From positions 310,001 to 374,000 of the forward strand of contig NZ_CP047650.1 of the NCBI RefSeq assembly GCF_009906855.1: a stretch of 64,000 nucleotides of DNA. Direction: 5' to 3'. Under the pieces are notes generated by a model. It saw nothing but the letters and a program-made list of their open reading frames with translations. It did no database searches and had not been told where the DNA came from. The translations under genes were made by a program, and so were the position numbers. This DNA comes from Xylophilus rhododendri (GTDB lineage Bacteria > Pseudomonadota > Gammaproteobacteria > Burkholderiales > Burkholderiaceae_C). Within the stretch, counting starts at the first letter, position 1. Each line of letters begins with the position of its first letter. Positions 29,013 through 44,141 of the stretch are shown here, in pieces.

Positions 29013-29046
29013 GCGGCCGGGCCCTCTGCGTTCAGCCGGCCGCTTT
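29013..29046 (+). terminator. Possible terminator between smpB and amidase
   Basis: An 8-bp inverted repeat GCGGCCGG / CCGGCCGC with a 15-base loop is followed by TTT on the plus strand. It sits in the 28-bp convergent spacer and runs into the amidase stop codon. The T-run is short. Confidence 0.4.
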
Positions 29047-30582
29047 GGTCAGCACGGGCGCCTGGCGGTGCCGGGTGGCCGTCTCGTAGGCGTAGGCATA
29101 GGCCAGCAGCCCGGCCTCGCTCCATTGCCGGCCCAGGAACAGCAGGCCGAAAGGCGCGCCGGAGGCGTAATAGCCGGCCGGCACGGTCACTGCCGGCAGG
29201 CCGGCGATATTGAGTTCGCCCACCGTGGTCTCCTGGATGGCGCCGGTGCGCACCGCGGGCAGTTCCTCGCGCATCTGCGGGAAGACCAGGCCGTCGAGCT
29301 GGTGGCGCTGGAACACGTCCTCCACGATGCGCAGGTAGGCGTCCTTCAGCGCGATGAATTCCGGCAGCGCCGGTGGCGTGCCGGGCGAACCCAGGCAGGC
29401 CACGAAGTCGGGCAGCCGGTGCATGAAATGCAGCACGCCGCCGGGGCCGAAGGCCGACTGCGCGGCGGTCGCCTCGGCGAACTCGGCGAAGGTCTTGAGC
29501 GCCGCATCCGGGCCCAGGCGCTCCAGGTATTTCTGCAGGTCGTAGGGCACCGACTCCATGCCGCGCGCGTCGAAGTTGCCGGCGGTGGGCTCACGCAGGT
29601 CGGCGAAGCCGGAGCCGGCGAAGGGGTCGTCCACCAGGATGGCGCCCTGGGCGCGCAGCTCGTCGGCGGCGCGGTCATAGAGCTTCTGCGCATCGGCCGA
29701 CAGCGGCTGGGCGCGCCAGCCCGGGCCGTAGAGACCCAGTCGAACGCCCTTCAGCGCATCCCGACGCAGCCCGGCGGTGTAGCCGCCCGCGGGCTGCTTG
29801 CCGACGCCGGCCAGGGTCTTGGGATCCTCGGCGCTGTATCCGGCCAGCGCGTCCAGGCACAGGGCTGCGTCGCGCACATTGCGGGCGATGGGGCCGACCA
29901 CGTCGCGGTTGCCTGAGAGCGGCATCACCCCCGCGTTCGGCACCAGGCCGATGGTGGGCTTGATGCCGACCAGGTCCTGGGCCGAGGCCGGGTTCTGGAT
30001 CGATCCGCCGGTCTCTTCCGCCAGGCCCAGCACGGCCATGCTGGCGGCCACGGCCGCCGCGGTGCCGGCGCTGCTGCCGCCGGGCACCCGGCCGGCCATG
30101 GCCACGTTGAGGGTCGGGCCGGCCCAGCTGTCGTCGGCATGGGTGCCGGTGTGGCTGAGGATGGGCACGTTCGTCTTGCCCAGGATCACCGTGCCGGCCG
30201 CGCGCATGCGGGCGACCACCGGCGAATCGGTGGCGGGATACAGGTCGACGCCGCCGCTCTTGCCGTGCAGCAGCGACCAGCCGGCGGTGGTGGGAAAGCC
30301 CACCATGTCCATCGGATCCTTCACCACCACCGGCACGCCGGCCAGGGGGCCGAGCTTCTCGCCGGCGGCGCGCCGGACGTCGATGGCGCGGGCGTCCGCC
30401 AGGGCCGCGTCGTTGAGGAAGACGATCGCGTTGTAGTGCGAGTTATAGGCCTCGATCTGGCGCAGGCAGGCGTGCGCCAGGCTCTCGGCGGTGAAGGCGC
30501 CGCTGGCGAAGCCTTGCTGCACGGCCTCCACGGTGAGGGCGGTCAGGTCCAGGTCCTGCAGGGTCGATTCGGTAGCGTTCAC
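29032..30582 (-). CDS. Amidase-signature hydrolase
   Basis: 516 residues from a GTG preceded by AAGGAG. It belongs to the amidase signature (AS) family: catalytic Lys in VPVVVKDPMDM, the Gly/Ser-rich GRVPGGSSAGTAAAVA containing the Ser pair, and GGSIQNPA. It would hydrolyse an amide to acid and ammonia. It is the last gene after urtABCDE in an amide-inducible cluster, so its substrate is probably the imported amide. It is unrelated to the nitrilase-fold AmiE of the Pseudomonas ami operon, whose regulators AmiC/AmiR are encoded upstream here. GatA is an alternative reading, but no gatB/gatC are adjacent. Confidence 0.88.
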   Translation of the reverse strand: MNATESTLQDLDLTALTVEAVQQGFASGAFTAESLAHACLRQIEAYNSHYNAIVFLNDAALADARAIDVRRAAGEKLGPLAGVPVVVKDPMDMVGFPTTAGWSLLHGKSGGVDLYPATDSPVVARMRAAGTVILGKTNVPILSHTGTHADDSWAGPTLNVAMAGRVPGGSSAGTAAAVAASMAVLGLAEETGGSIQNPASAQDLVGIKPTIGLVPNAGVMPLSGNRDVVGPIARNVRDAALCLDALAGYSAEDPKTLAGVGKQPAGGYTAGLRRDALKGVRLGLYGPGWRAQPLSADAQKLYDRAADELRAQGAILVDDPFAGSGFADLREPTAGNFDARGMESVPYDLQKYLERLGPDAALKTFAEFAEATAAQSAFGPGGVLHFMHRLPDFVACLGSPGTPPALPEFIALKDAYLRIVEDVFQRHQLDGLVFPQMREELPAVRTGAIQETTVGELNIAGLPAVTVPAGYYASGAPFGLLFLGRQWSEAGLLAYAYAYETATRHRQAPVLTKAAG

Positions 30583-30616: not shown

Positions 30617-31309
30617 TCAGAAGGCCATGTGGCGGTCGATGAGCTCGTCGGTCAGCGCGGCGATCGGCCCGCTCTGCACGATCGCGCCCTTCTCGAACAT
30701 GGCGAAGCGGCTGGCCACGCGGCGGGCGAAATCGATGTTCTGCTCCACCAGCACCATGGTCATGCCGAACTCGCGGTTGAGCCGCAGGATGGCCGCCTCG
30801 ATCTCCTCGACGACCGAGGGCTGTATGCCCTCGTTGGGCTCGTCGAGCAGCATCAGCTGCGGATGCGCGGCCAGCGCGCGCGCCAGGGCCAGCTGCTGCT
30901 GCTGGCCGCCCGAGAGCACGCCGCCGGGCCGGTCGAGGTTGGCCGCGAGGTAGGGGAACAGCTCCAGCGCCAGCGGCGGGATCGCCACCGGCCCGCGGCC
31001 GGCGAAGCAGCCCATCAGGATGTTCTGACGCACGCTGAAGTCCGCGATGATTTCCCGGCCCTGCGGCACATAGGCGATGCCGCCGCGCGCCCGGCGGTGG
31101 GTGGGCTGGCCGTCGATGCGCTGCCCGGCCAGCTCGATCGCGCCGGTGGAGCGCACCATGCTGCCCATCAGCGTGCGCAGCAGCGTGGTCTTGCCCATGC
31201 CGTTGCGGCCGAGGATGGCGGTGACCTCGCCCCGGGGCACGGCCAGGCTCACATCCTGCAGCGCATGGCTGCGGCCGTAGAAGCTGTTGACGTTGGTGAG
31301 TTTCAGCAT
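30617..31309 (-). CDS. urtE: Urea/amide ABC transporter ATPase UrtE
   Basis: 230 residues, LivF/UrtE type. It has Walker A LGRNGMGKTT, Q-loop PQGREI, signature LSGGQQQQLALARAL and Walker B LMLLDEPNEGIQPS; the NEGIQPS variation after Walker B is typical of UrtE. It pairs with UrtD to energise import through UrtB/UrtC. The start overlaps the urtD end by 7 bases. Confidence 0.9.
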   Translation of the reverse strand: MLKLTNVNSFYGRSHALQDVSLAVPRGEVTAILGRNGMGKTTLLRTLMGSMVRSTGAIELAGQRIDGQPTHRRARGGIAYVPQGREIIADFSVRQNILMGCFAGRGPVAIPPLALELFPYLAANLDRPGGVLSGGQQQQLALARALAAHPQLMLLDEPNEGIQPSVVEEIEAAILRLNREFGMTMVLVEQNIDFARRVASRFAMFEKGAIVQSGPIAALTDELIDRHMAF

Positions 31310-32061
31310 GGCGTGGCGATCCCATGGGAGCCGAGGTAGGCCTGGCGGACCTTGGGGTCGCGCTCGATCTCGGTGACGCTGCCCTCGGCCAGCACCCGGC
31401 CCAGATGCAGCACGGTGATGCGTTCGGCGATGTCGCGCACGAAGGCCATGTCGTGCTCCACCACCAGGATGGTCTGGCGGCCGCGCAGGGCCATCAGGAT
31501 CTGCGCGGTCTTGCGCGTCTCCGCCTGCGTCATGCCGGCGGTCGGTTCGTCGAGCAGGATCACCCGGGGTTTCTGCGCGATCAGCAGGCCCAGCTCCAGC
31601 CACTGCGTCTGGCCGTGGCTGAGGTCGGCGGCCTGGCGGTGCTGCAGCCCTGCCAGGCCGATCAGGTCCAGGATCTCGTCGATGCCCTTGTCCGTCTGCC
31701 GGCCGAAGCCCCAGCGCAGGTTGCGCAGGATGGAAGGCTCGCGGGTGGCCGCCACGCCCAGGTTCTGGCGCACCGTGAGTTCGCGGAACACGCTGGGGAT
31801 CTGGAACTTGCGTCCGATGCCGGCGCGCGCCACCCGGAACTCGGCGCGGTTGGTGATGTCGCTGCCGCTCAGCAGCACCTGGCCGTGCGAGCTGCGGGTC
31901 TTGCCGGAGATCAGGTCCATCAGCGTGGTCTTGCCGGCGCCGTTGGCGCCCAGCAGCACCCGCAGTTCGCCTTCGGCCACCTGCAGGCTGACGCCGTCCA
32001 CGGCCTTGAAGCCGCCGAAGCTCACGCCCAGGTCCTTCAATTCGAGTGCGAAGGCGCTCAT
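31303..32061 (-). CDS. urtD: Urea/amide ABC transporter ATPase UrtD
   Basis: 252 residues, LivG/UrtD type. Walker A is LLGANGAGKTTLMDLI, Walker B VILLDEPTAGM, and the unusual signature LSHGQTQWLELG (instead of LSGGQ) is characteristic of UrtD proteins. The H-loop VVEHDMAFVR is present. The ATG overlaps the urtC stop by ATGA. Confidence 0.92.
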   Translation of the reverse strand: MSAFALELKDLGVSFGGFKAVDGVSLQVAEGELRVLLGANGAGKTTLMDLISGKTRSSHGQVLLSGSDITNRAEFRVARAGIGRKFQIPSVFRELTVRQNLGVAATREPSILRNLRWGFGRQTDKGIDEILDLIGLAGLQHRQAADLSHGQTQWLELGLLIAQKPRVILLDEPTAGMTQAETRKTAQILMALRGRQTILVVEHDMAFVRDIAERITVLHLGRVLAEGSVTEIERDPKVRQAYLGSHGIATPC

Positions 32062-33167
32062 TCGGCGGCCCTCCCCGTGCGGCCCCAGCGGGCCAGCATG
32101 TCGTGGGCCCAGCCCCCGATGCCCTTGGGCAGGTAGAGCACCACCAGCACGAAGGCCAGGCCGACGATCACCCGCCAGGCCTCCACCAGCGACTGGGTCT
32201 CGCTGGCGGTCGATTCCAGCATGTTGATCAGGATCGCGCCCAGGCAGGCACCGAGCAGCGAGCCGCGCCCGCCCACCGCCGCCCAGACCACCATGGTGAT
32301 CGAGAAGGCCAGGTCCAGGAAGGTCGGCGAGGCGAACTCGGCCACCACCACATACAGCATCCCGGCCAGCGCGGCGATGCCGGCCGACAGCGAGAAGAAG
32401 AAGATCTGGTAGTGCGCCACATCGAAGCCCAGGTAGCGTGCCCGCTGCGGATCGCCCGAAGTGGCCCGCAGGATCAGCCCGGCCCGGGTGGCCAGCAGCA
32501 GCCGCGAGCCCACCAGCACCAGGGCCAGCACGGCGGCGATCAGGTAGTAGGTGGCGAGGCCGTAGGGGTCGAACTCGAAGCCGCCGAACCTCAGCCAGGC
32601 CAGGTCCGACAGGCCGTTGAAGCCGTTGGTCAGCGGCTGCGCATCCACCAGCAGCAGGCGCACCAGCAGCACCAGGGCCAGGGTGACGATGGAGACGAAC
32701 ACGCCGGCAATGCGTTTCCTGAACACCACCGTGCCGAGCAGGAAGGCCACGGCCACCGGCAGCACCACCCCCATCAGGATGCCGAAGGACTGGTGCCGGA
32801 ACGGCGACCAGACGAAGGCCAGGGGGTTGATGCAGCAGAGGTCGATCTTGGCGCCCGGCTCGGCGTTCGACAGCATGAAGTCCGGCACCGGCCCGCTGCC
32901 GCCGTGCTGCAGGCTGGCCGGGCTCGCCATCTTCAGCGACATGGCCAGCATGTAGGCGCCGATGCCGAAGAACAGCCCCTGCCCCAGGTTGAGGATGCCG
33001 GCATAGCCCCAGCACATCGCGATGGCCACGCCGAGCATCCCGTACACCAGGTACTTGGCCAGCCGGTTGAGCCAGAAGCCGTCGAGCACCAGAGGCGCCA
33101 GCGCCACCAACGCCAGGAAGACCGCATAGGCCGCGAAGGTCGCGCGCCTGTCCAGTGAGGAAACCAT
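32058..33167 (-). CDS. urtC: Urea/amide ABC transporter permease UrtC
   Basis: 369 residues, LivM-like inner-membrane permease with about ten hydrophobic helices. It has the family loop CWGYAGILNLGQGLFFGIGAY near the start and, later, ATSGDPQRARYLGFDV, the coupling region facing the ATPases. Length and gene order identify it as UrtC rather than an amino-acid LivM. It starts 4 bases after urtB and overlaps urtD. Confidence 0.9.
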   Translation of the reverse strand: MVSSLDRRATFAAYAVFLALVALAPLVLDGFWLNRLAKYLVYGMLGVAIAMCWGYAGILNLGQGLFFGIGAYMLAMSLKMASPASLQHGGSGPVPDFMLSNAEPGAKIDLCCINPLAFVWSPFRHQSFGILMGVVLPVAVAFLLGTVVFRKRIAGVFVSIVTLALVLLVRLLLVDAQPLTNGFNGLSDLAWLRFGGFEFDPYGLATYYLIAAVLALVLVGSRLLLATRAGLILRATSGDPQRARYLGFDVAHYQIFFFSLSAGIAALAGMLYVVVAEFASPTFLDLAFSITMVVWAAVGGRGSLLGACLGAILINMLESTASETQSLVEAWRVIVGLAFVLVVLYLPKGIGGWAHDMLARWGRTGRAAE

Positions 33168-33171
33168 GGCG

Positions 33172-34065
33172 TCAGCGCCCCTTGAATGAAAAAAGGCCCT
33201 GCGGCCGGACGATGATCAGCAGGATCACCAGGCCGAACATGGCGGCGCGCGCCACGATGTCGTTGCTCAGCGCCGCGACCACGCCGTTGATCTCGCCCAG
33301 GCCCACGGCCGTGAGCACAGCGCCCAGCAGGCTGCCGACGCCGCCGGCCACCACCACCAGGAAGCTGTCGACCACCAGCGAGGTGCCCATGTCGGGCGAG
33401 ACCGTCTTGAAGCCCGCCACCAGCACGCCGGTGACGCCGGCCAGGCCCGCGCCGAAGGCGAAGGTCCAGGCATTGACCCGCTCCACGTCGATGCCGCAGG
33501 CCGCCGCCATGCGCGGGTTGCGGATGATGGCGCGCACCTGCATGCCCATGCGGGTGCGGTACATCAGCAGCCAGGTCAGCAGCGTCAGCACCAGGGTGCT
33601 GGCCACGATGAAGGCCCGGTAGGCGTTGATCGAGGTGCCTCCCACCAGGAAGGCGCCCTGCAGCTCCGGCGGCACCGGCATGTTCTGCAGCCCCGGGCCC
33701 AGGCCCTGGATGTGGATGCCGAAGAAGGCCAGGCCCCCTTCGAGCCGCACCGCCTGCTGCACCAGGATGGCCACGCCCCAGGTGGCCAGCAGGGTGTCGC
33801 CCAGGCGGCCGTAGAGCCTGCGCACCACGCAGCGCTCGATCAGGAAGCCGAGCAGCGCGGCCACGCAGAAGGCGATCGGGATGGCGGCATACAGGCTCCA
33901 GCCGAGCCAGATCTGCGTCATCACCGCCGCATAGGCGCCGACCATGACCATCTCGCCGTGGGCCATGTTCACCACGCCCATGGCACCGTAGATGATGACC
34001 AGGCCGAGCGAGGCCAATAGAAGGATCGAGCCCACGCTCAGGCCGATCAGAAGTACGTCCAGCAT
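33172..34065 (-). CDS. urtB: Urea/amide ABC transporter permease UrtB
   Basis: 297 residues, LivH-like permease. It shows the typical start GLSVGSILLLASLGLVIIYG, NMAHGEMVMVGAYAA and the coupling segment RAIIRNPRMAAACGIDVERV. Short UrtB proteins without the extra N-terminal domain of cyanobacterial UrtB are usual in proteobacteria. A strong hairpin lies between urtA and this gene. Confidence 0.9.
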   Translation of the reverse strand: MLDVLLIGLSVGSILLLASLGLVIIYGAMGVVNMAHGEMVMVGAYAAVMTQIWLGWSLYAAIPIAFCVAALLGFLIERCVVRRLYGRLGDTLLATWGVAILVQQAVRLEGGLAFFGIHIQGLGPGLQNMPVPPELQGAFLVGGTSINAYRAFIVASTLVLTLLTWLLMYRTRMGMQVRAIIRNPRMAAACGIDVERVNAWTFAFGAGLAGVTGVLVAGFKTVSPDMGTSLVVDSFLVVVAGGVGSLLGAVLTAVGLGEINGVVAALSNDIVARAAMFGLVILLIIVRPQGLFSFKGR

Positions 34066-34134: not shown

Positions 34135-35382
34135 TCAGACCTTGACTTGCGCCGCGCCCTTGGTGGTGCACATCAGGTTGCTGTCGGTCTCGCCGTAGGC
34201 GAAGTACGGCAGCGGGCGGATCGGCTGCGCGGCCGCGTCCACCACCTTGCTCTGGCCGTCGGCCTGCCACTGGCCGATGCGTGGGGTGACCCAGGCGTGC
34301 AGGCTCTCGGCATCGATGCGCACCTTGCCGCCGGGCGCGTCGTAGGTCTGGCCGCCGATGTGGGCGCGGATCGAATCGGCCGTGGTCGACTTGCCCGCCT
34401 CCACCGCCTGCTTCCACAGGAAGACCTGGAAGTAGGCCGCTTCCAGCGAGTGGTAGGTGACGGCCTTGGGGTCGTTGACGAACTTGCGGTAGCGCTCGAT
34501 GAAGGACTTGTTGGCCGGCGTGTCGATCGACATGAAGTACGGCACCGAGGTGTAGCTGCCGGCGGCGTATTCGGCGCCCATGGCGGCGATCTCGATCTCG
34601 CTGGTCACGGTGGCGCAGATCGGCACCGCGGCCTGCGACATGCCCTGGTTCTTGTACTCGCGGTAGAAGGCCACCAGCGAATCGCCGACCACGTTGGACA
34701 GCACCACGTCAGCGCCCGACTCCTTGATCTTGCGGACCATGCTGGCCCATTCCGAATGGCCCAGTTCCAGGTATTCGTCGGCCACCCAGCTGGCGCCGGA
34801 CTGCTCGATCAGCTTCTTGCTGACCTTGGACATCTCGCGCGGATAGACATAGTTGGAGCCGACGATGAAGAACTTCTTCTTGCCCAGCTTCTGCACGATC
34901 CAGGGGATGTAGTTGCCCAGCTGCTGGTTGGCCACCGCGCCGCTGTAGACCACGTTCTTCGAGCACTCGAAGCCCTCGTAGTGGGTCTGGTAGAACAGCA
35001 TGGCGTTGCGCCGCTCGAAGACCGGCAGCACCGCCTTGCGGCTGGCCGAGGTGTGGCAGCCGAACACCGTCTCGATGCGGTCGCGGGTGACCAGCTTGGA
35101 GGCCTTCTCGTTGAAGGTCTTGGGATCGGAGGCGCCGTCTTCCAGCACCACCTCGACCTGGCGGCCCATCACGCCGCCGGCGGCGTTGATCTCGGAGACG
35201 GCCAGGCGCACGGCGTTGGCCAGCATCTTCTCGACGATGGAGAGCCCGCCGGTCTGCGAATAGAGCGCGCCGACCTTGATCTTGTCGGCGGCGAAGGCCG
35301 GACGCACCCAGGCGGGCGCGGCGACGGCGGCTGCCGTGGCGGCGGAAGAGACGAGCAGGCGGCGGCGTGAGGAAGTCAACAT
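34135..35382 (-). CDS. urtA: Urea/short-chain amide binding protein
   Basis: 415 residues. A twin-arginine-type leader (SSRRRLLVSSAATAA...FA-A) precedes a type I periplasmic binding protein of the UrtA/FmdD group: KIKVGALYSQTGGLS, FGCHTSASRKAVLPVFE, LFYQTHYEGFECSKN and FIVGSNYVYPREMSK. It is closely similar in layout to AmiC encoded in the same cluster, consistent with shared ligand class and duplication. It is the first gene after the ANTAR-type leader at 35383-35652. Confidence 0.9.
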   Translation of the reverse strand: MLTSSRRRLLVSSAATAAAVAAPAWVRPAFAADKIKVGALYSQTGGLSIVEKMLANAVRLAVSEINAAGGVMGRQVEVVLEDGASDPKTFNEKASKLVTRDRIETVFGCHTSASRKAVLPVFERRNAMLFYQTHYEGFECSKNVVYSGAVANQQLGNYIPWIVQKLGKKKFFIVGSNYVYPREMSKVSKKLIEQSGASWVADEYLELGHSEWASMVRKIKESGADVVLSNVVGDSLVAFYREYKNQGMSQAAVPICATVTSEIEIAAMGAEYAAGSYTSVPYFMSIDTPANKSFIERYRKFVNDPKAVTYHSLEAAYFQVFLWKQAVEAGKSTTADSIRAHIGGQTYDAPGGKVRIDAESLHAWVTPRIGQWQADGQSKVVDAAAQPIRPLPYFAYGETDSNLMCTTKGAAQVKV

Positions 35383-35483
35383 GGTGGAACCCTTAAGACG
35401 TGGGGCGTCCGTGTTCGACGGACGCCGGAAGTTGGAAAACCCGTATCAAGCGAAACCAGTCGACGGCACTGTCGAGCGCGAGC

Positions 35484-35522
35484 AAAAAAAAACCCACAGC
35501 GCAGCGTGGGCTGCGTTGTGGG
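35484..35522 (-). terminator. Leader terminator upstream of urtA
   Basis: On the minus strand CCCACAACGCAGC pairs with GCTGCGCTGTGGG (12 of 13 pairs, one A-C mismatch) around loop CCAC, followed by nine T residues. It lies about 100 bases before the urtA ATG and after amiR, so it would stop transcription of the importer unless overridden. Confidence 0.8.
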
Positions 35523-35532
35523 CTTCATTGCC
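35521..35532 (-). promoter_or_regulatory. ANTAR-type hexaloop hairpin, urtA leader
   Basis: The RNA GGC-AATGAA-GCC forms a small hairpin whose six-base loop has A at position 1 and G at position 4, the consensus for ANTAR protein targets. Its 3' arm shares two bases with the terminator 5' arm. A longer hairpin (35538-35567, loop of 7) stands just upstream where the first ANTAR hairpin would be, but its loop does not fit the consensus. The stem here is only 3 bp. Confidence 0.5.
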
Positions 35533-35652
35533 GGGGGTTCCAGAGCGACTGACATCGTCGTCTGGAAGAACCGCACCAGGCCTGAGGATCAAGGGTGGTG
35601 TGGCCACTGCGCGATGGAGATCCAGCGGCACAGTGGCGTCGATCTTAGCGGC

Positions 35653-36252
35653 TCAATTTGCAGCTTGCAACAAACTTTCCATGTTGATGATGGAGCTGGC
35701 GATCTGCTCCATCGACAGGCGCTTGGCCATGGCCTGGGCGCGTATCGCCTGGTAGGCCTCGCCCTCGCTGATGCCCTTGGAGGCCATCAGGATGGTCTTG
35801 GCCCGGCTCATGGCCTGGTCGCTGGTGATCTTGCGGCGCAGCTTGCGGTTCTCCTTGAGCAGGGTCTGTTGCTCGGTCCACATGCTGCGCGCCGCGACCA
35901 GGCTGGCCAGCAGGCCGAAGGGCTTGATCGGCTTCTGCACCACGGCGAAGGCGCTGCTCTCCAGCACCAGCTGCAGCGTCGTCGGATCCTCGTAGTTGAC
36001 GATGGCGATGACCGTCGGCCCCGGCTTGGGCAGGGACTTCAGCAACTGTTCGATGGCTTGGCGGCGCTCGCCCTCGGTGAGCAGGAAGAGCACATCGGCA
36101 TTCGAGGCGAGCGAAGCCGGCACCGGCCAGGCCACGCTCACCATGCAGCCGACCCGGCGCAGGTGGCTGACCAGGGCCTCGCCCTCCTCGTCCGGCGGAT
36201 GCACGACGACGACCTTCAGCTCCGGCAGCTCGCGCAATAGCGATATGGGCAT
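35653..36252 (-). CDS. amiR: AmiR-like ANTAR antiterminator
   Basis: 199 residues. The N-terminal part (about 1-120) is a receiver-like fold without a conventional phospho-acceptor pattern (VVVVHPPDEEGEALVSHL, then NYEDPTTLQLVLES). A helical linker is followed by the C-terminal ANTAR RNA-binding domain: AMSRAKTILMASKGISEGEA and YQAIRAQAMAKRLSMEQIAS. AmiR binds leader hairpins and prevents termination; AmiC holds it inactive until an amide binds. It lies 12 bases after amiC and immediately before the urtA leader terminator. Confidence 0.9.
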   Translation of the reverse strand: MPISLLRELPELKVVVVHPPDEEGEALVSHLRRVGCMVSVAWPVPASLASNADVLFLLTEGERRQAIEQLLKSLPKPGPTVIAIVNYEDPTTLQLVLESSAFAVVQKPIKPFGLLASLVAARSMWTEQQTLLKENRKLRRKITSDQAMSRAKTILMASKGISEGEAYQAIRAQAMAKRLSMEQIASSIINMESLLQAAN

Positions 36253-36264
36253 GCGTGGCTCTCC

Positions 36265-37410
36265 TCAGGCGGCCCGGCCCGCGAGCGGGTCGAAGCGGCT
36301 CTCGAACATGTAAGGGTCGGGCTTGACGCGGATGCCCGGGTCGTCGACCACCTGGAACTGCCCCCCGGCATCGACTCGCGCGACGCGCGGCCACAGGTAG
36401 GTGTGGTGGTTTTCCTTGTCGATGCGCACCCGGCCCTGCGGCGCGTCGAACTCGTGTTCGTGCAGGTGCGGCAGCATGGCGTCGAGCCGGTCGTCGCCGG
36501 CGCGCTCCAGGGTCTGGGCATAGAGCTTGACCTGGAAGTAGGCGGCTTCGGCATTGGCGGTGATCGGCAGGTCCGGGCCGAAGCGCTGGCGCCAGGCCTG
36601 CACGAAGCGCCGGTTAGCCGGCGTGTCGATGGTGGAAAAATACGGCGCGGCGGTGATGCTGCCTTCGGCCACTTCGGGCGGCATCTGCGCGATCTCGGCT
36701 TCCTGCGTGGACTGGCTGGCGATCGGATGGGTGCGCTGGTCGAAGCCGGCCTCGCGGTAGGCCTGGTAGAACTGGGCGATGCTGTCGCCCACCATGGTCG
36801 AATAGATCACGTCGGGCTGGGCCGCCTTGATGCGGCGGATCACCTTGGCCATGTCGCTCTCGCCGATCAACAGCGGCACGTAGAGCTCGTCGAGCAGCTG
36901 GCCGCCGGACTGGCGGAACAGGTCGCCGATGATGCGGTTGGACTCGTAGGGATAGACATAGTCGGAGCCCACCAGGAACAGGCGCTTGCCGAAGTTCTGC
37001 GTGAGGTAGCGCACCAGCTGGACGGAGTTCTGGTTGGGCGCGGCGCCGGTGTAGACGCAGTTGGGCGAGTACTCGAAGCCCTCGTAGAGCGTCGGGTAGA
37101 ACAGCAGCGCCCGGTGCGCCTCCACCACCGGCAGCACCGCCTTGCGGGTGCTGGACATGTGGCAGCCGAAGATGACCCGCACGCCCTCCACGTCGCACAG
37201 CTGCCGGGCCAGCTCGCCGTAGCGCTTGGGCCGCGAGGCCGGGTCGCAGAGGACCGGCTCGATCGGCGCGCCGAGCACGCCCCCGGCCGCGTTGATCTCC
37301 TCGATCGCGAGCAGGGTGGCCGCCTGTTGCGTTCGCTCCACCGCCGCGGTCACGCCTGTGTTGGAGAACAGGACGCCGACCCGCCAGGTTCGCGTTTGGG
37401 TTGTGCTCAC
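36265..37410 (-). CDS. amiC: AmiC-like amide sensor (negative regulator)
   Basis: 381 residues from a GTG at 37410 with GGAG ten bases upstream. It is a type I binding-protein fold without signal peptide, hence cytoplasmic: WRVGVLFSNTGVTAAVERT, FGCHMSSTRKAVLPVVE, YPTLYEGFEYSPN and FLVGSDYVYPYESNR. This matches AmiC, which binds small aliphatic amides and releases AmiR. It shares motif order with the neighbouring UrtA, so sensor and importer probably see the same ligand. Its own leader has a terminator and ANTAR-type hairpin. Confidence 0.9.
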   Translation of the reverse strand: MSTTQTRTWRVGVLFSNTGVTAAVERTQQAATLLAIEEINAAGGVLGAPIEPVLCDPASRPKRYGELARQLCDVEGVRVIFGCHMSSTRKAVLPVVEAHRALLFYPTLYEGFEYSPNCVYTGAAPNQNSVQLVRYLTQNFGKRLFLVGSDYVYPYESNRIIGDLFRQSGGQLLDELYVPLLIGESDMAKVIRRIKAAQPDVIYSTMVGDSIAQFYQAYREAGFDQRTHPIASQSTQEAEIAQMPPEVAEGSITAAPYFSTIDTPANRRFVQAWRQRFGPDLPITANAEAAYFQVKLYAQTLERAGDDRLDAMLPHLHEHEFDAPQGRVRIDKENHHTYLWPRVARVDAGGQFQVVDDPGIRVKPDPYMFESRFDPLAGRAA

Positions 37411-37424
37411 GCTTTTCAATCTCC

Positions 37425-37467
37425 AAAAAAAAAGCTCCCAACGACCGCGATACGGGTCGTTGGGAGC
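37425..37467 (-). terminator. Leader terminator upstream of amiC
   Basis: On the minus strand a perfect 13-bp stem GCTCCCAACGACC / GGTCGTTGGGAGC with an 8-base loop is followed by nine T residues, then directly by the GGAG ribosome site of amiC. It ends only 14 bases before the start codon and cannot serve an upstream gene, since the next gene upstream is on the other strand. It must act on amiC-amiR transcription. Confidence 0.85.
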
Positions 37468-37478
37468 CTCACTGCTCC
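37463..37478 (-). promoter_or_regulatory. ANTAR-type hexaloop hairpin, amiC leader
   Basis: The RNA GGAGC-AGTGAG-GCTCC is a 5-bp hairpin with a hexaloop having A at position 1 and G at position 4. Its 3' arm GCTCC is the first five bases of the terminator stem, so the two structures exclude each other, as in known ANTAR antitermination leaders. A second hairpin further upstream (about 37491-37511, loop of 5) does not match the loop consensus. Confidence 0.65.
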
Positions 37479-37680
37479 GAAGTTCATGGGGGCGATGCCG
37501 TGGAGGCGATCGCAATCGCGCCACTTTAACAGCGTCCCGGGATAACCCGAAGCTTGCCGGACCGCCGCTGCCACGCCCGGGGCATTTGCGACACCGGCCT
37601 ACAGGGCAGGTCATGCACCGGTGCCACAGTGCCTGCGGTGCCGTCGGCGCCCCGTATCCCCCGTCCCAAGGAGCACAAGA

Positions 37681-39003
37681 ATGTCCATGCGTTTGACCGG
37701 CCTGGCCGCCGCCAGCCTCGCCTGCCTGCTGGCCGCCTGCGGCGAGCACGCCCTGCTGCCCGAATCCGCCGGCATCGGCCCGAGCCCGACGCTTCCCGCG
37801 CCCACCAAGCCCCTCATCCCCACCCTGCACATCGCCCCGGCCAAGGGCTGGCGCGACGGCGCCATGCCGCAGCCGGTGGCCGGCACGGTGCTCACCAAAT
37901 TCGCAGAAGGCCTGGAACACCCCCGCTGGGTCTACGTGCTGCCCAACGGCGACGTGCTGGTCGCCGAGAGCGACGCGCCGGCCAAGGACGAGAAGGAAAA
38001 GCACAACGGCCCCAAAGCCTGGGTGCAGGGCCTGGTGATGAAACGCGCTGGCTCGCATGTGCCCAGCGCCGACCGCATCACCCTGCTGCGCGACGCCGAT
38101 GGCGACGGCGTGGCCGAAACCCGCAATACCTACGTCGCCAACCTCAAGTCACCCTACGGCATGGTGCTGGTCGGCAACGAGCTCTTCATTGCCAACGCCG
38201 ATGCGCTGGTCAAGCTGCCCTACCAGGCAGGCGCCACCAGCCTGCCCGGCACGCCCACCAAGGTCATCGACCTGCCGGGCGGCATCAACCACCACTGGAC
38301 CAAGAACGTGATCGCCAGCGAGGACGGCAGCAAGCTCTATGTCTCGGTCGGCTCCAACAGCAATGTCGGCGAGAACGGCCTGGACAAGGAAGAAGGCCGC
38401 GCCGCCATCTGGGAGGTGGACCGCGCCAGCGGCCAGCACCGCATCTTCGCCAGCGGCCTGCGCAACCCCAACGGCATGGGCTGGGAGCCCACCACCAAGG
38501 CGCTCTGGACCGTGGTCAACGAACGCGACGAACTCGGCAGCGACCTGGTGCCCGACTACCTCACCTCGGTGAAGGACGGCGGCTTCTACGGCTGGCCCTT
38601 CAGCTACTGGGGCCAGAACGTGGACGAGCGGCCGCAGCCGCCCAACCCCGCCCTGGTGGCCAAGGCCATCAAGCCCGACTACGGCCTGGGCAACCATGTG
38701 GCGCCGCTGGGCATGGCCTTCGCCACCGGCAACCAGCTGCCGCCGCAGTTCGCCAGCGGTGTCTTCGTGGGCGAGCACGGCTCCTGGAACCGCAAGCCGC
38801 GCGCCGGCTACAAGGTGGTGTTCATCCCCTTCGTCGATGGCATGCCCAAAGGCCAGCCGATCGATGTGCTGACCGGTTTCGTCGACAGCGAAGGCAATGC
38901 CAGCGGCCGGCCGGTGGGCGTGGCCATCGACCGCAAAGGCGGCCTGCTGGTGGCCGACGACGTGGGCAATACCGTCTGGCGGGTGAGTGGGATGGTTCGC
39001 TGA
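37681..39003 (+). CDS. Sorbosone-dehydrogenase-like beta-propeller lipoprotein
   Basis: 440 residues; AAGGAG is placed 7 bases before the ATG. The lipobox LACLLAAC-G predicts a lipoprotein. The mature part resembles the PQQ-dependent soluble aldose/L-sorbosone dehydrogenase propeller: GLEHPRWVYVLPNGDVLVAES, shown in part, LPGGINHHWTKNVIAS, FASGLRNPNGMGWEP, and EHGSWNRKPRAGYKVVF. The WTKN and HGSWNR segments are typical of this family. Cofactor binding and substrate are not proven by sequence. It is divergent from amiC. Confidence 0.85.
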   Translation: MSMRLTGLAAASLACLLAACGEHALLPESAGIGPSPTLPAPTKPLIPTLHIAPAKGWRDGAMPQPVAGTVLTKFAEGLEHPRWVYVLPNGDVLVAESDAPAKDEKEKHNGPKAWVQGLVMKRAGSHVPSADRITLLRDADGDGVAETRNTYVANLKSPYGMVLVGNELFIANADALVKLPYQAGATSLPGTPTKVIDLPGGINHHWTKNVIASEDGSKLYVSVGSNSNVGENGLDKEEGRAAIWEVDRASGQHRIFASGLRNPNGMGWEPTTKALWTVVNERDELGSDLVPDYLTSVKDGGFYGWPFSYWGQNVDERPQPPNPALVAKAIKPDYGLGNHVAPLGMAFATGNQLPPQFASGVFVGEHGSWNRKPRAGYKVVFIPFVDGMPKGQPIDVLTGFVDSEGNASGRPVGVAIDRKGGLLVADDVGNTVWRVSGMVR

Positions 39004-43769: not shown

Positions 43770-44141
43770 TCAGTCGTCCTTGGAGCGCGAGGCGACGGCC
43801 TGCGCGATCAGGGCATTCATGTCCGAGGCCCGCTCGGGCGTGCGGTCGAACTGGAAATGCAGCGTGGGCACGGTGTGGATGTGCAGGCGCTTGAACAGGC
43901 CGGCGCGCAGGAAACCCGCCGCCTGGTTCAGGCCTTCGAGCGCATCGTCCTTGTCGCCGGTCAGCACGCTGAAGAACACCTTGGCGTGCGCATAGTCGGG
44001 CGTGACCTCGACCGCCTGGATCGTGACCATGCCCACCCGCGGGTCCTTCAACTCGCGGGCGATCAGTTCCGCCAGATCGCGCTGGATCTGGTCGGCCACC
44101 CGGAAGCCGCGGTTGGGGACGGACGATTTCTTTTTCGGCAT
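43770..44141 (-). CDS. rbfA: Ribosome-binding factor A
   Basis: 123 residues, a KH-fold maturation factor of the 30S subunit. Motifs include [29 protein letters not shown], the Ala-kinked [10 protein letters not shown], and [20 protein letters not shown] near the end. Length is normal. It lies between infB and truB, the standard order. Confidence 0.95.

Follow-up and report, generated by a model that had tools for sequence, protein, structure and literature searches.

The window analysed here is a stretch of 64,000 nucleotides (nt) of the Xylophilus rhododendri genome (NZ_CP047650.1, positions 310,001 to 374,000), whose minus strand carries homologues of the sensor gene amiC and the antiterminator gene amiR, followed by genes for a urea-type ABC importer and an amidase. 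The leaders before amiC and before the urtA-like gene each contain an intrinsic terminator whose 5' arm overlaps a small hexaloop hairpin (P2), and it is probable that two attenuators controlled by AmiR run this one amide-type regulon. A third hexaloop hairpin (P3) follows the terminator of the urtA leader. Below, A1 and G4 denote A and G at loop positions 1 and 4, P1 is the upstream partner of P2, and the window's clade comprises the window, loci L033-L040 and L142, which we take to be Comamonadaceae (Variovorax from its record, the others as presumed kin). The features of the locus, in window positions, are the following.

37523..37531, minus strand: predicted extended -10 element of the amiC promoter, TGTTAAAGT (TGNTANAGT here in 10/10 loci of the window's clade)
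37463..37478, minus strand: antiterminator hairpin P2 of the amiC leader, GGAGC[AGTGAG]GCTCC (folding, scan, conservation)
37434..37467, minus strand: intrinsic terminator stem-loop of the amiC leader, its 5' arm common to P2 (fold; compensatory changes in 21 loci)
37425..37433, minus strand: nine-T tract (read from the sequence)
36265..37410, minus strand: amiC homologue with a GTG start, coding for a ligand sensor that presumably antagonises AmiR (Pfam Peripla_BP_5)
35653..36252, minus strand: amiR homologue, ANTAR RNA-binding antiterminator (Pfam AmiR_N, E 1e-40, and ANTAR, E 4e-13)
35642..35670, minus strand: predicted internal promoter at the amiR 3' end, TTGCAA-17-TAAGAT (sequence; 8/12 consensus matches)
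35571..35604, minus strand: upstream hairpin P0 of the urtA leader, not a hexaloop (fold; similar hairpin by eye in an alignment of 9 leaders)
35539..35566, minus strand: P1-like hairpin with the 7-nt loop GATGTCA, G at position 4 and no A at position 1 (fold, alignment)
35521..35532, minus strand: antiterminator hairpin P2 of the urtA leader, GGC[AATGAA]GCC (folding, scan, conservation)
35493..35523, minus strand: intrinsic terminator stem-loop of the urtA leader (fold; compensatory changes)
35484..35492, minus strand: nine-T tract (read from the sequence)
35460..35475, minus strand: P3, third A1/G4 hexaloop hairpin, TCGAC[AGTGCC]GTCGA, after the urtA-leader terminator (scan, covariation)
34135..35382, minus strand: urtA-like substrate-binding protein gene (Peripla_BP_5)
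33172..34065, minus strand: urtB (TIGR03409, above cut-off)
32058..33167, minus strand: urtC (TIGR03408, above cut-off)
31303..32061, minus strand: urtD-like ATPase gene (open reading frame; Variovorax L142 counterpart annotated urtD)
30617..31309, minus strand: urtE-like ATPase gene (open reading frame; Agrobacterium L144 counterpart annotated urtE)
29032..30582, minus strand: amidase (PF01425), final gene of the presumed operon (Pfam)

The minus-strand order is thus amiC - amiR - urtA-like - urtB - urtC - urtD - urtE - amidase. An earlier note on this DNA had named the first two genes amiC and amiR homologues, and both names hold. The best PDB match of the amiC product is Pseudomonas aeruginosa AmiC (1pea, E 1e-110), and its neighbour, 12 nt away, encodes a protein of the AmiR type, with an AmiR_N and an ANTAR domain, that matches P. 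aeruginosa AmiR (1qo0_D, E 2e-26) over residues 4-191; an AmiC homologue encoded beside amiR is likewise what the AmiC type calls for. UrtB and UrtC pass their equivalog cut-offs and the binding protein fails that of UrtA (TIGR03407, 408 bits against 492.75). Because of this, and because an amidase lies downstream, an amide is probably the likelier importer substrate, and urea may not be a substrate. The amidase occupies the same position in 7/8 relatives (Variovorax, Pseudorhodoferax, Pseudacidovorax and Paracidovorax), the only exception being locus L040, where no amidase match was found. By homology, the ligand of AmiC is presumably a small amide, whose binding would free AmiR in the cytoplasm.

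The same note had described two leaders, each with an intrinsic terminator ending in nine T residues, and these tracts indeed lie at 37433-37425, 14 nt from the amiC GTG start, and at 35492-35484. Both P2 loops (AGTGAG and AATGAA) are A1/G4 hexaloops, and both P2 hairpins overlap the 5' arm of their terminator. The further proposal that hairpin and terminator are alternative folds is confirmed by folding: in both cases the whole leader folds into the terminator and the leader cut before the terminator 3' arm forms P2, so the two exclude each other. A scan against the promoter consensus returned nothing above its threshold, and both promoters in the list rest on conservation; for the one at the end of amiR, a -35-like element stands 17 or 18 nt upstream of a TA-rich hexamer in 10/10 loci of the window's clade, and at L040 a scan for a standard -10 fails. 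If this promoter is right, the importer operon would be equipped with a promoter and an attenuator of its own rather than being served by mere read-through from amiC. A hairpin that looks similar to P0 was seen by eye in Rhizobiaceae too.

The conservation of these elements was surveyed in 79 AmiR loci, 33 with an AmiR at least 46.5% identical to that of the window (high-identity) and 46 at 43.8% or less (low-identity); the line was drawn after seeing the data, in which identities jump from 43.8 to 46.7%. The sample took in 8/8 of the relatives named above, all listed AmiR places of further searches (duplicates apart) and 12/174 plasmid records. The mid-identity AmiR matches G033, G147 and G079 stand outside the 79, and rows L138-L140 were dropped as the same contigs, judged by length, as L033, L035 and L040. 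Near relatives among the rows (six Rhizobium/Agrobacterium/Neorhizobium leaders, two Shinella, two Aminobacter strains) mean that the counts are not independent. A scan with A1 required misses loci whose P2 starts with T or G; this was relaxed in the survey scans, which required G4 and were then repeated with any hexaloop. The 31-row alignments of transporter-side leaders leave out L178 (no P3 by scan) and L179 (no attenuator), and for L145, where the scan picked another register, P2 was set by hand.

Conservation of the hexaloops in relatives, which the earlier note had proposed as a check, is borne out. Gene order and both attenuators are shared by all 8/8 relatives and by V. paradoxus VAI-C, and in the 8/8 the loop is included. 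Among the loci read, those of Rhizobium, Agrobacterium and Neorhizobium, with an AmiR 57-59% identical, also have both attenuators, and the conservation of the two spans two bacterial classes. The transporter-side attenuator (a terminator that lies between amiR and the genes after it and contains a G4 hexaloop) is present in 32/33 high-identity and 12/46 low-identity loci. The amiC-side attenuator is found in 21/33 high-identity loci, namely 10 of the window's clade, 8 of Rhizobiaceae including Shinella and 3 others of the phylum (L175-L177), and in 0/44 of the low-identity loci that have amiC (two with the upstream region cut off). The former is thus widespread, and the latter marks part of this AmiR lineage. 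At L119 a hexaloop-terminator lies about 320 nt 5' of amiC, beyond the 220 nt scanned.

The terminators of both leaders show compensatory changes, and in the window's clade the 5' arm of the amiC-leader P2 is 100% conserved against 58% in the 20 columns upstream (10 loci). When any hexaloop was allowed, the loop was still G4 in 32/32 transporter-side and 21/21 amiC-side high-identity attenuators; non-G4 candidates appeared at L124 and L125 (transporter side) and L129 (amiC side), all low-identity. Separately, in L124 and L125 the importer is preceded, 3' of amiR, by an AGGT[AACGGA]ACCT attenuator and then an apparent second terminator.

These results bear on the possibility that both structures are plain terminators, the urtA-side one ending the amiC-amiR transcript and the amiC-side one insulating the operon, with hexaloops that arose by chance. 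The urtA-side terminator does lie directly 3' of amiR. Moreover, when both strands of the window were scanned mechanically for intrinsic terminators with an A1/G4 hexaloop in their 5' arm, 3 matches came up (the third, at 44076 on the plus strand within a coding sequence, is probably chance). Dinucleotide-shuffled versions of the window, 20 in all, yielded 0-2 matches each, with a mean of 0.7, so that the scan count is not decisive and the case rests on position and conservation. On both of these the explanation fares poorly. The gene upstream of amiC (37681-39003) is divergent, so the amiC-side terminator is not that of a neighbouring upstream gene; the loop and both P2 arms are conserved over two classes and the flanks are not; G4 persists even where the scan did not require it; and 10/32 high-identity transporter-side leaders have a canonical A1/G4 P1 21-23 nt before P2. 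We therefore consider plain terminators improbable and continue with the reading of two AmiR-controlled attenuators.

Several observations weigh against that reading, and the first of them concerns P1. The accepted model has two A1/G4 hexaloops in tandem (PMC3369931), and the earlier note had given paired hexaloop hairpins as the known ANTAR target. That description fits P2, with A1/G4 in both leaders, and does not fit its partner: the window lacks an A1/G4 hexaloop in P1 of either leader, as do all loci of its clade (canonical P1 in 0/10, either leader). Hairpins seen by eye upstream in the amiC leader have other loops, none of them an A1/G4 hexaloop, and the urtA leader has its P1-like 7-nt loop, GATGTCA in the window and CATGTGT in 7/10 clade loci. 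According to PMC8934654, termination is prevented only when both hexaloops are contacted, which argues against fully functional leaders in the window unless the 7-nt P1, or some other hairpin, takes the part of the partner. The same source redefines the minimal ANTAR binding site as one hexaloop and reports that EutV binds each single hexaloop; one G4 hexaloop hairpin is what P2 and P3 each provide. The canonical P1 leaders noted above lie outside the window's clade, and canonical P1 also occurs in 2/21 amiC leaders, 23 nt (L176) and 25 nt (L177) before P2. Because it is found in other high-identity leaders, the window's form may be derived, and the window is a variant, not a strict member, of the ANTAR dual-hexaloop target RNA. 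In the low-identity loci L082, L086-L089, L094, L117 and L121 we observed a canonical P1 (AGGGCT or AGCGTT loop) together with T, not A, at P2 position 1.

Further points on the same side concern the P2 loop, its stem and the protein. P2 position 1 is A in 20/31 aligned transporter-side leaders and T or G in 11/31; it is A in 19/21 amiC leaders and G in both of those from Shinella. The amiC P2 stem is nearly invariant, and its covariation score was matched by 500/500 shuffles; this stem is supported by invariance, not by covariation. For EutV it is reported that G4 stacks on Tyr164, that E160 and Y164 contact G4 and that A1 is not contacted (PMC8934654), and the presence of A1 in only 20/31 P2 loops appears to agree with G4 as the contacted base. 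The window's AmiR has equivalents of EutV E160, Y164, K149, R168, M172 and R175; it lacks those of R142, K143, N173 and R177. Since even P. aeruginosa AmiR carries His where EutV has Y164, such matching of residues is weak evidence. Lastly, the earlier note had called for a run of the ANTAR-target covariance model. There were 0 Rfam matches at gathering level and only two at E<=1, both far under their gathering scores, and the covariance model R1 is unspecific, since a congener without a close AmiR matches it at E 1.5e-5 and the window's amiC leader at E 0.014.

Because congeners without a close AmiR match R1 with E values down to 1.5e-5, no regulon was drawn from it. Beyond the urtA leader it found only weak matches in the genome itself; one of these, C1:978668, has no T-run in the stretch inspected and is probably chance. 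A DNA pattern for further sites matched the amiC leader only, the pattern being too narrow for the urtA leader. One congener has an ANTAR-type leader with a loop like TATGAA (L181; G152 C1:4229016-4229131, minus strand) before an apparent nitrilase-type gene; the gene of a distant AmiR lies about 8 kb away.

The scarcity of canonical P1 on the amiC side (absent from 19/21 leaders) raises the question of whether only the urtA-side element is an AmiR antiterminator, the amiC-side one holding the sensor pair at a constant low baseline and not responding to AmiR. Such a division would also suit the absence of the amiC attenuator from 12/33 high-identity loci and the finding of an A1/G4 hairpin after the amiC-leader T-run in only 1/21 (L040). 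Yet G4 is kept in every one of the 21 amiC leaders that have the attenuator and A1 in 19, and those of L176 and L177 carry the full dual motif, which makes an unresponsive amiC leader unlikely. Less likely still is that the leaders are targets of the other ANTAR protein of this genome (NasR-like, G000 C1:5645957), even though that match outscores AmiR on the Pfam model: a different attenuator, TGGAC[AACGGC]GTCCA, lies near its gene (L101 4565, minus strand; G000 C1:5639000-5653000), and the leaders studied flank amiC-amiR, the only place where they were looked for. We regard that attribution as very improbable, and control of both leaders by AmiR remains the reading that we follow.

P3 was sought in the 50 nt after the T-run, as an A1/G4 hexaloop closed by 4 or more stem pairs. 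It is present in 31/32 high-identity transporter-side leaders, against 1.17 expected from dinucleotide shuffles, and in 0/12 low-identity leaders, where 0.51 was expected; a comparable hairpin follows 13/173 other terminator-like sites of the same loci. Counted from the first T of the run, its loop begins 19-32 nt downstream. P3 is kept in the window's clade and in Rhizobiales plasmids. Its outer stem pairs hold 7 compensatory cells against 1.5 in shuffles, a value reached by 0/500 (22 distinct rows), and the number of pairs with compensatory changes, 2, is not unusual (152/500 shuffles). RNAalifold predicts P3 unprompted, on rows picked for having it.

Since P3 forms only after the terminator has been passed, it cannot help the same polymerase past it, and this position is one reason to ask whether P3 is not an AmiR site at all and serves instead as a DNA operator or as a structural hairpin of the message. 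Its invariant apex, GAC/GT, could equally belong to a DNA site. Against this, loop positions 2, 3, 5 and 6 vary and A1 and G4 are fixed in 31/31 (the scan required both, and 31/32 leaders passed it), the outer stem pairs compensate, and in L153, L176 and L177 P1 is nearly the same hairpin as P3, with apex GAC/GTC or GAC/GTT as opposed to the GGC/GCC of P2. On balance we think a role unconnected with AmiR rather unlikely, though of all the alternatives it is the one to be taken most seriously. To the fuller proposal we give an even chance: that in this AmiR lineage P3 is a third AmiR-binding hexaloop beyond the terminator, so that AmiR acts after read-through (by retention, titration or message control), a step absent from the two-hairpin model, and that the sensor operon is self-gated.

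From the sequence, the predicted structures, their conservation and their linkage to amiC-amiR we infer the ligand, the binding, the antitermination and the feedback as follows, with the AmiC release, AmiR binding and read-through steps taken from P. aeruginosa (PMC5259723, PMC3369936). When no ligand is present AmiC would, by homology, hold AmiR, and polymerase would stop at both terminators. A small amide on AmiC would set AmiR free, and free AmiR would then bind P2 by its G4 hexaloop as each leader is transcribed, occupying the 5' arm of the terminator and letting transcription continue into amiC-amiR and into the importer/amidase operon. Since AmiC is produced along with AmiR, the resulting feedback loop would raise sensitivity, yet limit itself once the ligand is consumed. 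P3 on the urtA read-through RNA would most likely dock AmiR, our guess being that it titrates AmiR or keeps it near the gene, and this is the weakest step.

The closest known system is the P. aeruginosa ami operon, which likewise has homologous AmiC and AmiR, an AmiR attenuator before its targets, and induction of amiC and amiR (PMC5259723; P1 and P2 of the amiE leader were taken from papers). In that operon, amiEBCRS, the attenuator stands in front of amiE, with amiC and amiR further down, and the whole is transcribed when AmiR is released (PMC5259723). The positive loop proposed for the present locus, which had been thought to differ from the classic ami operon, therefore exists in P. aeruginosa too; what does differ is the separate attenuator, with amiC-amiR first behind one of their own and a urea-type ABC importer and an amidase-signature amidase behind the second. 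The Enterococcus faecalis eut system resembles ours in having a G4 hexaloop P2 that overlaps the terminator and several attenuators per regulator (PMC3369931, PMC8934654). The EutV targets have A1/G4 in both P1 and P2, whereas the window has it in P2 only, plus P3 after the terminator, and EutV is activated by phosphorylation, whereas AmiR has a non-phosphorylated pseudo-receiver (PMC3369936). Klebsiella nasF/NasR and Paracoccus NasS-NasT share ANTAR antitermination in nitrogen metabolism, and in NasS-NasT a sensor-antiterminator complex is split by its ligand (PMC3795266); the ligand and the genes are different, and the passages concerned mention no attenuator before the sensor pair.

ANTAR matches upstream of urea transporters were already reported by Ramesh et al. 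2012 (PMC3369931), and in an operon described in a 2026 paper, amiE, amiC and amiR share a plasmid locus with an ABC transporter, the text concerned naming no terminator (PMC13209695). In open-licence PMC papers we found neither a dedicated amiC-amiR attenuator nor a hexaloop 3' of the terminator described. The self-induction loop is not new, and the dedicated second attenuator and P3 are.

By its anatomy, the conserved two-attenuator arrangement appears to work like ANTAR antitermination, and in the window it deviates from the dual-hexaloop definition taken strictly. AmiR, one of the two founding ANTAR proteins, thereby gains naturally repeated targets, whose varying loops and spacing make recognition rules readable from evolution. 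A sensor-antiterminator pair with an attenuator of its own would be a feedback design, and P3 is a conserved hexaloop at a position for which the accepted mechanism offers no function.

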